NCBI GenBank assembly: GCA_016207925.1
Contig: JACQZB010000079.1
Coordinates: forward strand, 1-40,896
Reading direction: 5' to 3'
Source: Nitrospinota bacterium
GTDB taxonomy: Bacteria; Nitrospinota_A; UBA7883
Length of the DNA stretch: 40,896 nt
Position 1 is the stretch's first letter; each line of letters starts with the position of its first letter. The notes below the pieces were generated by a model, which saw only the letters and a list, made by a program, of their open reading frames with translations, did no database searches and was not told the origin of the DNA. The translations under genes were made by a program, and so were the position numbers. Below, piece by piece: positions 13,726 through 18,408 of the stretch.

Positions 13726-14139
13726 ATGTCGCGTACATTCGCCATCATCAAGCCGGACGCCGTGGAGCGCAAGCTGACCGGCATCATCATAGACCGCATG
13801 GAGCGCGAGGGGTTGCAAGTCGTGGCGCTCAAGCGCCTTCACATGACCAAAAAGCAGGCCGAAGGGTTTTACGCCGAGCATAAGGCGCGTCCGTTTTTCG
13901 CCTCGTTGACCGGGTACATGGCCAGCGGCCCGTGCTACGTGGCCGCGCTGGAAGGGGAAAACGCCCAGCCGCGCTGGCGCGACATCATGGGCGCCACCAA
14001 TCCCGAACAGGCCGCGCCGGGCACCATACGCAAGGAGTTGGCGGTGGATTTGGAAAAGAACTCCGTCCACGGCTCCGACTCGGAGACCAGCGCCGCGCGC
14101 GAAATCGCCTACTTCTTCAGCGAATTGGAGATTGTATAA
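13726..14139 (+). CDS. ndk: nucleoside-diphosphate kinase
   Basis: Ndk passes the gamma-phosphate from ATP to other nucleoside diphosphates through a phosphohistidine. The 137-residue length is typical. [15 protein letters not shown] opens the protein, [17 protein letters not shown] lies in the middle, and the phospho-accepting His115 sits in NSVHGSDS. A good ribosome site (AAAAGGAG) precedes the ATG. The last 31 nt overlap the 3' end of the convergent anmK gene. Confidence 0.97.
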
Positions 14140-15257
14140 GCGGTTGGGTACGGGGTCAGGTTTCCAAGCCTGACCAGCCCGCGTGAGCCGGTGATGGAGG
14201 ACAAGTCCAGCGCGTCGCCGCGGTGGGCGTGGAACGCAAGCAAGGCCATCAACGCGGATTCGATGACCTTGGCCGGCCAGCCAAGCGCGCCAGACGCCAC
14301 AAGCTCTACCCGCGGGCCGAGCAGGGCCGCAAGCCGTTCCATCAAATAACCATTTTTCGCTCCGCCGCCGCAGACCACCACGCGATCCGTGGATTCGCCG
14401 CGCCGCGCAAGTTTTATGATTTCACCCGCGATGGAGCGGGCGGTAAGTTCCGTGAGCGCCGCCAAGGTATCCGCGTTCCAGCGCCGGGGATTATCCATCC
14501 CCGCCCATTTGAAGAACACTTCGCCAAACATTTCGCGCCCCGTGGATTTTGGCGCCGCGCGGCGGAAGTAAGGATGCGCCAAACAACGGCGCAGCAGCCG
14601 CTCGTCCACTTGGCCCCGGCGCGCCAGGGCGCCGCCCTTGTCATACGCCTTTCCCGCGATGCGTTGTGTGGCAATGTCCATGAGCATGTTGCCCGGCCCC
14701 GTGTCGTATGCGGTGAGTTGGGACAAATACGTCGCGCCCGCGGGGATGTGGGTCAGGTTGGCGATGCCGCCGATGTTGACCACGGTGATGTCTATCTTGC
14801 GCGAGCCGAACATGGGTAGATGGACGATGGGGGCCAGCGGCGCGCCTTGCCCGCCCGCGGCCATGTCCGCGGAGCGAAAGCCGCTCCACACGGGAACGCC
14901 CGTCATCGCGGCGATCACGGCGCCGCTCCCCAGTTGCAACGTGGCGCCGCGCGCGGGGTCGTGCCATACCGTTTGCCCGTGGGAGCCGATGGCGGCGGTG
15001 CGAAGGCCCTTCATCGCCTTTAGCGCCGCGCGTCCAAAGGCGCGCCCGATGTCCACGTCGAGCGCGCACGACTCCGCCGTCCCCGCGCGGCCCTCCGCCG
15101 CCGCAAGGACCCGCGCGCGCAGGGCAGGGGAGTAGCGAAGGGACGCGAAGCGGATCAATTTCAATTCCGGCCCCAAGCGCCCCTGCCCGATGTCCACCAC
15201 CGCGGCGTCCACCGCGTCGGCGGAGGTGCCCGACATCAGCCCCAGGTATAAGGCCAC
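14109..15257 (-). CDS. anmK: anhydro-N-acetylmuramic acid kinase
   Basis: AnmK phosphorylates and opens 1,6-anhydro-N-acetylmuramic acid released during peptidoglycan turnover, giving MurNAc-6-phosphate for recycling. The protein is 382 residues. It starts with the family signature [19 protein letters not shown] (GTG start at 15257, matching the usual N-terminus). It also has [12 protein letters not shown] and [12 protein letters not shown], and a second phosphate-binding loop, [16 protein letters not shown]. The amidohydrolase stop lies 3 nt upstream, so the two are co-transcribed, probably in a wall-recycling unit. It overlaps ndk tail to tail by 31 nt. Confidence 0.95.
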
Positions 15258-15260
15258 CGG

Positions 15261-16445
15261 TCAGCCCCGTTGCCGCTTGAAATCGTTTTTCACGCGCTCC
15301 ATCAAGGCGCGGTCAGTCAACAAGTCATAGGCGGTCAGCGCCACGGCTTTGGTGATCAGCAGCATACGTCCGATCCCCTCGCGGGAGACGACGGCCTTCA
15401 AAAAATTCGTCGAATGATTGATGTCCTCGCGCCCGCCCACGGCGTATTCGGGATGCAGGCAGGGGACTGCCTGGCTTACGTTGCCGATGTCGGAGGAACC
15501 AATTTCCTCTGTCTCGTTGAACCCCTCTTCAGCAAGCCCCAGCGCTTCCATATTGCGCCGGAACGCTTCGCCCATGGGGTAATTGGGATAGAAGGGATCG
15601 TAACTGTGGCCGCGCCGCTTTACCGCAACCGTACAGCCCGCCGAGCGCGCCGCGCCGCGCGCCGCCCGGATCACTTTTTCCGTCAAGTCCGCGAAGTATT
15701 CGCGGGTAAGCGCGCGGACGTAGAACTCCATCACCACCTTATCGGGGATGATGTTGGGCGCGTCGCCGCCGTGGCGAAAGATGCCGTGGACGCGCGCCTG
15801 GTCCTTCATCTGTTGGCGCAGGGCGGAGACGGCGTTGTAGAACGTCACACCCGCGTCCAGCGCGTTCACCCCCTGGTCGGGGAAGGCCGCCGCGTGGCTG
15901 GCCCTGCCGCTGAAGGTGAAAGTGAGCGACGTGACGGCGTACATGCGGTTGATGACCCGCGTTTTATTGCTGGGGTGGGCCATCAAGGCCGCGTCCACTC
16001 CCCGGAACACGCCGTTTTTGATCATCCTGATTTTACCGCCGCCGCCTTCCTCGGCGGGGGTTCCGATAACCATGATTTCGCCCGGCATATCCACGCCGGA
16101 CGCGGCCAGGGCCGCCGCCGCGCCATAGGCGGAGGCGGCGATAAGGTTATGCCCGCAGGCGTGGCCCATGGGCAAGGCGTCGTATTCGGCGATCAGCGCC
16201 ACGCGCGGACCCTTGCCCGCGCCGCGTTTGCGTGCGATGAACGCCGTGGCCAGCCCGCCCGCCGGCGAGGTGATCCGGTAGCCGCTGGCGGCCAGTTTTT
16301 CAACCAGCAGCGCCTTGGCGAAGGTCTCGCGGTAGCCAAGCTCCGGCTTGGCGAAAATCTCCTTGCCCACTTCGGCGACGCCGTCCGCCATGCGGTCCAC
16401 GGCGCGGATGATGACGCGTTTGGCTTCACGTTGGCTTTGGGCCAT
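15261..16445 (-). CDS. M20-family metallo-amidohydrolase (AbgB/hippurate hydrolase-like)
   Basis: This M20D-type zinc peptidase/amidohydrolase is about 394 residues. Metal-site motifs are visible: ALPMGHACGHN (Cys and His ligands), GTPAEEGGGGK (the catalytic and ligand glutamates), and a C-terminal histidine in EDINHSTNF. A central dimerisation domain contains TFSGRASHAAAFPDQG. Members cleave N-acyl amino acids, p-aminobenzoyl-glutamate or similar amides. The ATG at 16445 (MAQSQREAKR) is preferred over a longer frame to 16508, which would overlap the HPr-protein gene. Neighbours suggest peptidoglycan-fragment or amino-acid salvage, but the substrate is not known. Confidence 0.9.
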   Translation of the reverse strand: MAQSQREAKRVIIRAVDRMADGVAEVGKEIFAKPELGYRETFAKALLVEKLAASGYRITSPAGGLATAFIARKRGAGKGPRVALIAEYDALPMGHACGHNLIAASAYGAAAALAASGVDMPGEIMVIGTPAEEGGGGKIRMIKNGVFRGVDAALMAHPSNKTRVINRMYAVTSLTFTFSGRASHAAAFPDQGVNALDAGVTFYNAVSALRQQMKDQARVHGIFRHGGDAPNIIPDKVVMEFYVRALTREYFADLTEKVIRAARGAARSAGCTVAVKRRGHSYDPFYPNYPMGEAFRRNMEALGLAEEGFNETEEIGSSDIGNVSQAVPCLHPEYAVGGREDINHSTNFLKAVVSREGIGRMLLITKAVALTAYDLLTDRALMERVKNDFKRQRG

Positions 16446-16447
16446 GA

Positions 16448-17767
16448 TCACATGTTCCTTAATATGCGCAGGTAGTTTAGGTCCTTGGGTATGTCCTGAT
16501 CCTCGCAATAGTTGTGGTCGGCGAGGATCTTCAGGTCGTCCAGCGTGCGCCGGTCGCCCTCGATTTTCACCGTGCGCGCGCCCTGGTCGGCCAAGGCGCC
16601 GCCCGCCTCCAGAAGCTCCAGCACGGAGCGGCAGTTGTACTTCTTGCCGTCTATCAGCAAAAAGGCGTCGGTGCCGTGCTCCTGCACGATCAGGCTTATA
16701 TAGGTGGCGGGGCGGGCGTGGAACCCCTGCGGCTGGGGCAGCGGCAGCTCGTAGATGATCGGCTCGACGTACATTGTCAGGATGCGTTCGGCCACCTCGT
16801 TGCCCTCCGCGAGGAACCGGCCGATGAAGCCCAAGCCAAAGTCGGTGATGCTGGCGATCAGGTTGATGTCGTCCACCAGATCGGAGACGCGCGATTTGAC
16901 GTCGCTTTTGCGGATCTGGTTTTCGTGACGCTCGTAAAAATGCACCAGCCAGCGCAGCATGTCAAACAGGTGCATGGGAATGGCCGTCAGCCCCCGCAGG
17001 GTGATCATCCAGCCGTTGTTTTTTTCCGTGGTCCCGCCGCGCACATGGGTGTCGTATTCGCTTTGGATGTTGTGCAACTGGCTTTCCAATTCGGCCAGTA
17101 GCGTTTCGTTGAGTTTGCTGGGGATGATTTCGCTTAGCGAGACGGCCTTGAGCTTGCGGTGGAACCGGTGGGTCTTGAAGGACTTGACCACGCGCCGGTA
17201 CGCCTGGGCGATGGCGACGATCCGCTCGGATTCATCCTCAGCTTCCTCCCCCGCGATGGTGTAGGGGAGCCTGGGAGTCACCTTTACCCCCCACTTTTCC
17301 ATGTCCGGCGCGGAGGGCTGGACGCGTATCGCAAGGCGGTCCGTCTCGGCCAAAAGCGCCGTATAGAAGCGAGTGATCGCTTCGGCGAAATAGGTCAAGG
17401 TGGCGGTGGCGCCTTTCTCGAAGTCACGCCGCTTGGTGTCCCGCTCGCCGCCCAGATAGTCGGAATAGCGGTCCAGGACATGGTACAACTGGAAGCCCGC
17501 CAACGAAAAATTCCGCACGCACGCCACCAGTTCGGCGAAAAACAAAAGCCGCAGGTTGGTCCGCGCGCCGTGGTCGTCCAGAAAGCTTTCCAGTTTCTCG
17601 GCCGCCTGCAGCAAGGTGAAGTAGTAGGCCCTGCCCAACAGAACGCCTTGCCCCCCCCGCAGCGCCGAAAGGACGCTGAAGAACTCCTGGCATTCGCGGT
17701 GGACGAGTGGCAGGAAATCATCCTCGTTGATGATGGGGGTAAGCGAACTGCTGCCGTTGGAGGTCAT
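16448..17767 (-). CDS. large helical protein with C-terminal HPr-like phosphocarrier domain
   Basis: This 439-residue protein has two parts. Residues 1 to about 335 are mostly alpha-helical with no family I recognise. Residues 340-425 read as an HPr domain: QPQGFHARPATYISL carries the phospho-acceptor His350, followed by DGKKYNCRSVLELLEAGG and the closing IEGDRRTLDDLKIL. HPr normally accepts phosphate from PTS enzyme I. An HPr fused to a long helical domain suggests a regulator rather than a sugar carrier. It ends 2 nt before the amidohydrolase start. No enzyme I, HPr kinase or sugar permease is in the window. Confidence 0.75.
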   Translation of the reverse strand: MTSNGSSSLTPIINEDDFLPLVHRECQEFFSVLSALRGGQGVLLGRAYYFTLLQAAEKLESFLDDHGARTNLRLLFFAELVACVRNFSLAGFQLYHVLDRYSDYLGGERDTKRRDFEKGATATLTYFAEAITRFYTALLAETDRLAIRVQPSAPDMEKWGVKVTPRLPYTIAGEEAEDESERIVAIAQAYRRVVKSFKTHRFHRKLKAVSLSEIIPSKLNETLLAELESQLHNIQSEYDTHVRGGTTEKNNGWMITLRGLTAIPMHLFDMLRWLVHFYERHENQIRKSDVKSRVSDLVDDINLIASITDFGLGFIGRFLAEGNEVAERILTMYVEPIIYELPLPQPQGFHARPATYISLIVQEHGTDAFLLIDGKKYNCRSVLELLEAGGALADQGARTVKIEGDRRTLDDLKILADHNYCEDQDIPKDLNYLRILRNM

Positions 17768-17806: not shown

Positions 17807-17914
17807 TTATGCGCGGCCAGAGCGGGCTTGGGCATTGCGCCGCGCCGTGCGCCGTTTAAGCGCCACAGCGCGCTGATGCTGTTTACGCTCGTGTTTGCTT
17901 TTGGAACGCGCCAT
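17807..17914 (-). CDS. 35-residue strongly basic protein
   Basis: A short frame on the minus strand encodes MARSKSKHERKQHQRAV..., ending in SGRA. About one third of its residues are Lys or Arg, and the start resembles small ribosome- or RNA-binding proteins. I do not recognise the family. The ATG follows directly after the T-run of a rho-independent terminator, and the stop lies 39 nt before the HPr-protein gene. That odd placement, with no ribosome site, keeps confidence moderate. Confidence 0.5.
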   Translation of the reverse strand: MARSKSKHERKQHQRAVALKRRTARRNAQARSGRA

Positions 17915-17955
17915 AAAAAAACCCTTGGTTACCAATGGTGTATGGTAACCAAGGG
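17915..17955 (-). terminator. rho-independent terminator of the 18.0-18.4 kb gene
   Basis: CCCTTGGTTACCA (17922-17934) and TGGTAACCAAGGG (17943-17955) form a perfect 13-bp stem with an 8-nt loop. On the minus strand it is followed by seven T (17921-17915). It lies 27 nt past the stop of the hypothetical gene and directly before the ATG of the small basic protein. Confidence 0.88.
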
Positions 17956-17982: not shown

Positions 17983-18375
17983 CTACCAACTAAGGCCGAT
18001 CTTGCGCAGCCACTCCTTTTCGTCGAAGCGCTCGATAACCCATTCCTCGAACGCCGCCTCGGTGGCCGTGATCTCGCGTCCGTCGTAAATCGCCCGGCGG
18101 CCGGGAGCGGCCCCTTGGGAGCGGACCATTCCGTGTTCGGGCTGCGGCAGCGCGCGCGGCGTCTCTATCCGCGTATCCTGTCTCGCGAACATGGTGGCGG
18201 AAAGCTCCAGCAGGTCGTTGACCCGCAAGGCAAGCCCCAACAGCGTGGACGAGTCAATAATCCCGCGTTCTTTCAACTCGGCCAGATGGTTCATCACCGC
18301 CTCGTTGCGCGCCAAAGCGTCCACAATCATCTGCGACAGTTCCCGCAATTCCTTGTCCCTGTCTCTCTGGTCCAT
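17983..18375 (-). CDS. hypothetical protein, about 130 residues
   Basis: I do not recognise a family. The N-terminal two thirds is helical and charged (KELRELSQMIVDALARNEAVMNHL-like heptads), suggesting a coiled coil. The C-terminus, ATEAAFEEWVIERFDEKEWLRKIGLSW, is acidic and aromatic. The ATG at 18375 is preferred over 18390 because a GGAGAGGTGG ribosome site sits just before it. The gene has its own terminator downstream and a large dyad upstream, so it is probably transcribed alone. Confidence 0.7.
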   Translation of the reverse strand: MDQRDRDKELRELSQMIVDALARNEAVMNHLAELKERGIIDSSTLLGLALRVNDLLELSATMFARQDTRIETPRALPQPEHGMVRSQGAAPGRRAIYDGREITATEAAFEEWVIERFDEKEWLRKIGLSW

Positions 18376-18408
18376 GGTCCACCTCTCCATGTGAAGCCAT
18401 TTTATCTA

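Follow-up and report, generated by a model that had tools for sequence, protein, structure and literature searches.

HPr is among the best-studied small bacterial proteins and is normally a stand-alone protein of about 85–90 amino acids. In FruB (diphosphoryl transfer protein) and DhaM the HPr domain is joined to other domains, the partners being known PTS domains, and PTS domains are also known to switch some transcription factors. Components of the regulatory PTS-Ntr have been tied to cell-envelope metabolism: NPr of E. coli acts on LpxD and dephospho-NPr acts on envelope-stress sensitivity (PMC4635465), and EIIA-Ntr of Salmonella binds and inhibits GlmS (PMC5024086). There the control is exerted by separate small proteins, whereas the gene described here belongs to an operon-like cluster with genes for an M20-family amidohydrolase and AnmK, and its control function is inferred.

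The DNA analysed, called the window below, is a stretch of 40,896 nucleotides (contig JACQZB010000079.1) from a Nitrospinota bacterium. An initial annotation, made from the letters alone, had described one of its genes as coding for an HPr phosphocarrier domain fused to a long helical region. The encoded protein is a phosphate-relay unit (HPr), forming the C-terminal quarter of 439 amino acids, joined to a helical domain for which the libraries searched hold no recognised family. The features of the locus are as follows.

16448..17767, minus strand: fusion gene (helical domain plus HPr domain), 439 amino acids, ATG at 17767 and stop at 16448; orthologues found.
16763..17743, minus strand: N-terminal all-helical domain, residues 9–335 (AlphaFold2 model), without library family or convincing fold match.
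16496..16762, minus strand: HPr domain, residues 336–424, from profile matches and predicted fold.
16718..16720, minus strand: codon of H350, the predicted phospho-histidine; H in 50 of 50 relatives.
16625..16627, minus strand: codon of S381, at the position of HPr Ser-46; S in 49 of 50 relatives, C in one.
15261..16445, minus strand: M20-family amidohydrolase (TIGR01891, E 1.1e-60, over the cut-off; PF01546); its ATG lies 2 nt after the stop of the fusion gene.
14109..15257, minus strand: AnmK, anhydro-N-acetylmuramic acid kinase (up to 370 bits with the AnmK models of NCBIfam); it begins 3 nt downstream of the M20 stop.

Searched alone, the window protein is a weak HPr match, scoring below the cut-off with both Pfam PF00381 (E 0.0031, 18 bits against a cut-off of 23) and NCBIfam TIGR01003 (E 2.9e-6, 27.2 bits against 47.9). 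Yet the match of the family is not weak, as judged from the members of alignment A3, the family profile and the predicted fold. All 28 members of A3 matched PTS-HPr at E≤1 (best 1.6e-6) and all 28 matched TIGR01003; many fusion orthologues exceed the Pfam HPr cut-off (for example G315, at 30.3 bits), and the profile of the fusion family reached solved HPr structures at 4e-7. The predicted structure of the whole protein had a pLDDT of 86.3 and a pTM of 0.83, and the predicted fold of residues 336–424 matched HPr structure 3lfg_B with a Z-score of 11.4 (2.2 Å, 85 residues). The motif GFHARPA, with H350 numbered as in the initial annotation, occupies residues 348–354 and lies with the HPr domain within the last 104 residues. 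The phospho-acceptor motif His-x-R-P is kept among the full-length relatives aligned, H350 and P353 in 50 of 50 and R352 in 49 of 50. Mean pairwise identity (1225 pairs) was 54% for the HPr domain against 37% for the N-terminal domain, the HPr domain thus being the more conserved. Sequence profiles and the predicted fold both bear out the HPr assignment.

The fusion has in common with HPr/NPr (PF00381, TIGR01003) the predicted HPr fold, the H-x-R-P motif, the serine at the Ser-46 position and co-occurrence with enzyme I and PtsN; unlike known HPr, it carries a conserved tail after the HPr fold. The Pfam search of the window protein matched PTS-HPr only, with no known PTS partner domain. When the members of A3 were searched against Pfam and NCBIfam, the non-HPr families were each weak and confined to one or two of the 28, and FruB- and DhaM-type proteins were named in weak NCBIfam matches. 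Like those two, the fusion joins HPr to something else; unlike theirs, its partner consists of helices throughout and matches no library family.

Modelled on their own with AlphaFold2, residues 9–335 were predicted to form helices only (pLDDT 88.9, pTM 0.89), and the helix list, read from the secondary structure of the model, suggests two successive bundles of four long helices each. The earlier statement that the first 335 residues match nothing known holds for the libraries searched: Pfam and NCBIfam searches gave no credible family for the N-terminal part of the window protein, a search of solved-structure sequences with the profile of the domain returned nothing beyond histones and other low-scoring matches (best E 0.019), and a fold search against the PDB and viral models gave nothing at E≤0.001. 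Residues N71, D239, R258, H276, E279, R280 and H281 are invariant in all 50 relatives, and R85, H96, R100 and H266 are kept in 48 or 49 of them. Seven invariant residues mark out this family of helical domains, which is conserved but has no convincing model in the searched copies of Pfam and NCBIfam. An internal duplication, suspected from the H-x3-R pattern near residues 96–100 and 276–280, found no support, the profile–profile comparison of the two halves giving a probability of 0.6%.

As to phylogenetic distribution, a check named in the initial annotation, the fusion was found in all 24 sampled genomes of the window's phylum, Nitrospinota, including that of the window itself (2.67 Mb, 90.9% complete, of the same family as G004, Nitrospinaceae bacterium UBA7883). 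The alignment search of 385 genomes gave a match in 54, many of the weak ones covering the HPr part only and resembling ordinary HPr. Outside Nitrospinota both domains were matched in G028, G176, G315, G236, G095, G365, G287, G258, G197, G147 and G198, and G359 gave an N-terminal domain match only, at a contig end. In a second phylum, that of G315, the fusion is present in 62 of 77 genomes and in 29 of the 31 of best quality. Genes split over contigs or pieces were counted as present (G387, G416, G424, G441, G448). The 50 aligned sequences come from 19 of the 24 Nitrospinota genomes, from 23 of the 62 second-phylum genomes that have the fusion, and from eight others; left out were G010 (also from alignments A2 and A3), G359 and a 19-bit second match in G022. 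Inheritance of the fusion looks largely vertical, since the tree of these 50 sequences holds the two phyla mostly apart; its deepest branching order is uncertain, and long branches group together.

The fusion gene is often translationally coupled to the M20 amidohydrolase gene and, in Nitrospinota, to anmK. In 23 of 50 neighbourhoods (17 of 19 in the window's phylum, 6 of 23 in the second) the gene that follows is the M20 gene, and the two frequently overlap by 4 nt; in G008, one of the two exceptions in the window's phylum, the following frame runs into the end of the contig and may be M20 too. AnmK is found in 12 of the 50 neighbourhoods, all of the window's phylum, and PF03702 was matched in the AnmK orthologue of G001. 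In the second phylum a NUDIX hydrolase is the commonest next gene (12 of 23 neighbourhoods), and the next gene is neither M20 nor AnmK in 16 of 23, with one more cut by a contig end. Genes for LD-carboxypeptidase and Mur ligase (Mpl in G236) lie nearby on the opposite strand in G236, G095 and G365. By family name these neighbours have cell-wall recovery functions, and their association with the fusion is no more than suggestive. The M20/AnmK linkage is mostly inherited within two phyla, not independent. The neighbours had been called peptidoglycan-recycling genes; this fits AnmK, two genes downstream, but the intervening gene encodes an M20 amidohydrolase with a putative cell-wall role only.

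The locus is, as first described, free of PTS genes, but the genome is not. Its contig C164 carries a cluster rpoN–hpf–ptsN–EIIA-Man–HPr–enzyme I (rpoN, hpf, ptsN and EIIA-Man named by reading the translations), and the fusion lies on another contig, C47; in this the fusion differs from PtsO/NPr of PTS-Ntr, its gene being away from the rpoN–ptsN–enzyme I cluster. The enzyme I frame of the window genome is N-terminally incomplete in comparison with the relative L103, with profile positions 27–121 only (about 9400–9620 of L051, G000:C164), and the missing stretch may be an assembly error or a real loss. In the separate HPr of this genome (L051:9608-9874), read by eye, S replaces P after H-A-R and K apparently stands at the Ser-46 position; by these two features the HPr domain of the fusion is the more canonical of the two.

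Enzyme I was detected in 32 of 35 fusion genomes, which speaks circumstantially for its acting on the fusion, and not found in G008, G012 and G236 (completeness 87, 98 and 96%). A separate HPr is present in 25 of the 35, namely in the window's organism, 19 others of its phylum and further genomes. The other ten (G004, G008, G012, G023, G028, G147, G176, G197, G236, G315) gave none, with the proviso that in 9 of 35 genomes not even the fusion was detected by the Pfam HPr model, so that a separate HPr of strongly diverged sequence might likewise escape it; seven of these ten have enzyme I. In the second phylum enzyme I was found in 71 of 77 genomes and a separate HPr in four. Of the 62 genomes with the fusion, 58 gave no other protein of the HPr family; 55 of these 58 have enzyme I, and three gave no enzyme I match. 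In the three genomes of this phylum that were read (G315, G028, G176) ptsN adjoins enzyme I with no HPr gene between, and EIIA-Man was not found near enzyme I. The same adjacency is seen in G147, which belongs neither to the second phylum nor to the close relatives of the window's organism. In these four genomes and in G023 the gap between ptsN and enzyme I is at most 133 nt, too short to hold an HPr gene. In G197, likewise outside both groups, enzyme I is present, but the 14.5 kb read there contained no ptsN. A hidden HPr in the EIIA-Man/enzyme I gap of G004 (~290 nt) was considered and rejected, the translated frame containing stops and no listed open reading frame reaching 70 amino acids.

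While enzyme I, one of the partners proposed for a genome search, was thus found, HPr kinase gave no match in the window genome and nothing convincing in the 23 further genomes of its phylum; a clear HprK is present in 4 of the 35 fusion genomes and in 0 of 24 of the window's phylum. Control by HPr kinase was rejected for this phylum, the PF07475 matches being short (about 43–59 profile positions, 19–28 bits) and not read as kinases; weak matches of this family were given by G001, G002, G003, G005, G007, G019, G023 and G236.

Taken as a multidomain HPr, the fusion would be phosphorylated at H350 by enzyme I, the phosphate could pass on to PtsN, and the helical domain would serve as an input or output module; we put the probability of this reading at roughly 0.6. 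That the fusion works as an HPr is best supported by its position as the sole HPr found in genomes with enzyme I, together with the adjacency of ptsN and enzyme I without an HPr gene. By analogy with known PTS biology, PEP-charged enzyme I would phosphorylate H350 of the C-terminal domain, and the phosphoryl group could move on to PtsN (EIIA-Ntr) or EIIA-Man. Where a separate HPr is lacking, the fusion would then form an indispensable link in the middle of the regulatory PTS. In the window's organism, whose genome encodes an ordinary HPr, carriage of phosphate does not have to depend on the fusion, which would act there as a second HPr with a dedicated task. The N-terminal helical domain, with its invariant charged residues, would bind a ligand or partner, the binding shifting with the phosphorylation state of H350. 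This binding would in turn tune the co-transcribed functions, the M20 amidohydrolase and in Nitrospinota also AnmK, and the outcome would be a link between the PEP or energy state and the recovery of cell-wall material. Phosphorylation, phosphotransfer, regulation and the whole role of the N-terminal domain are what we infer from the above, and that the helical domain senses or acts on something tied to cell-wall recovery is speculative.

The initial annotation had proposed a phosphorylation-controlled regulator, which is possible, but the genome-wide pattern, with no other HPr found in many genomes that have enzyme I, favours in the first place a phosphocarrier that has gained a domain. A terminal PTS-responsive regulator, whose HPr domain receives phosphate from enzyme I or HPr, passes none on and switches the helical domain, appears unlikely. 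It would agree with the separate HPr of the window's organism and of 19 other genomes of its phylum, with the seven residues of the N-terminal domain invariant in 50 of 50 sequences and with the tight M20/AnmK linkage; however, no other HPr was found in the 58 second-phylum fusion genomes, and where PtsN and enzyme I are adjacent, as in the three genomes read, something should carry phosphate between them.

That conservation across the family is especially high at H350, R352 and P353, and higher in the HPr domain than in the rest, argues against an enzyme or ligand-binding protein that keeps its HPr-like domain as a mere structural relic or for binding, with phosphorylation unimportant. We consider this quite improbable, even though the gene, with its HPr-family match, persists in the three fusion genomes where enzyme I was not detected, and the invariant charged residues of the N-terminal domain would suit a binding or active site. 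A polyphosphate-sensing HPr, with the N-terminal region a diverged CHAD domain (polyphosphate-binding, helical), can be given very little credence: both are largely helical and Foldseek ranks CHAD chain 6qva first for each of the two models (probability 0.95 and 0.93), but these rows have E 0.04–0.06, an rmsd of about 18 Å and TM 0.24–0.33, the closer structural alignment covers one part only (Z 8.0 and 6.7, 137 residues) and is no better than with unrelated bundles, and the Pfam search of the window protein gave no CHAD match at E≤1, so that the likeness comes without a significant structural or sequence match.

Returning to the multidomain HPr, it would resemble PTS-Ntr (NPr–LpxD, EIIA-Ntr–GlmS) in being a regulatory PTS component tied to cell-envelope metabolism. 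The open-access literature search found no paper describing the fusion; within the libraries and open literature searched, the HPr part is ordinary, and the partner domain and the replacement of a separate HPr are out of the ordinary. As the fusion is the sole HPr found in most fusion-bearing genomes of the second phylum, a relay step that is normally separate has apparently been built into an unstudied protein. The fusion gives a direct genetic handle on the role of the regulatory PTS in Nitrospinota and the second phylum. More tentatively, and with doubt prevailing, a whole lineage might have moved the HPr step into a protein with a new sensor or effector fold, so that all phosphate going from enzyme I to PtsN would pass through a protein that senses or controls cell-wall recovery as well; if true, PEP status and envelope recycling would be linked by a checkpoint within the relay itself.

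Some minor observations concern the region upstream of the fusion gene. An open reading frame of 135 amino acids (17983-18390 of the window, minus strand) gave no Pfam match and by eye resembles a cluster of proteins of 133–152 amino acids in G002, G003, G005 and G008, although automated grouping, which retained a longer, overlapping frame at this place, left the two unjoined. Between it and the fusion gene lies a terminator-like stem of 13 pairs followed by seven T (17955-17922, minus strand); in the terminator scan as a whole, sites were no more numerous than in shuffles. Between this stem and the fusion gene, at about 17808-17915 on the minus strand, a strongly basic frame of about 35 codons was noticed by eye, perhaps a small ribosome-type protein. 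In some Nitrospinota relatives (loci L031, L033, L034, L037, L039) genes for a DnaB-like helicase and alanine racemase, as well as MlaD/MlaE-type genes with an ABC ATPase, are found upstream of or near the fusion gene.
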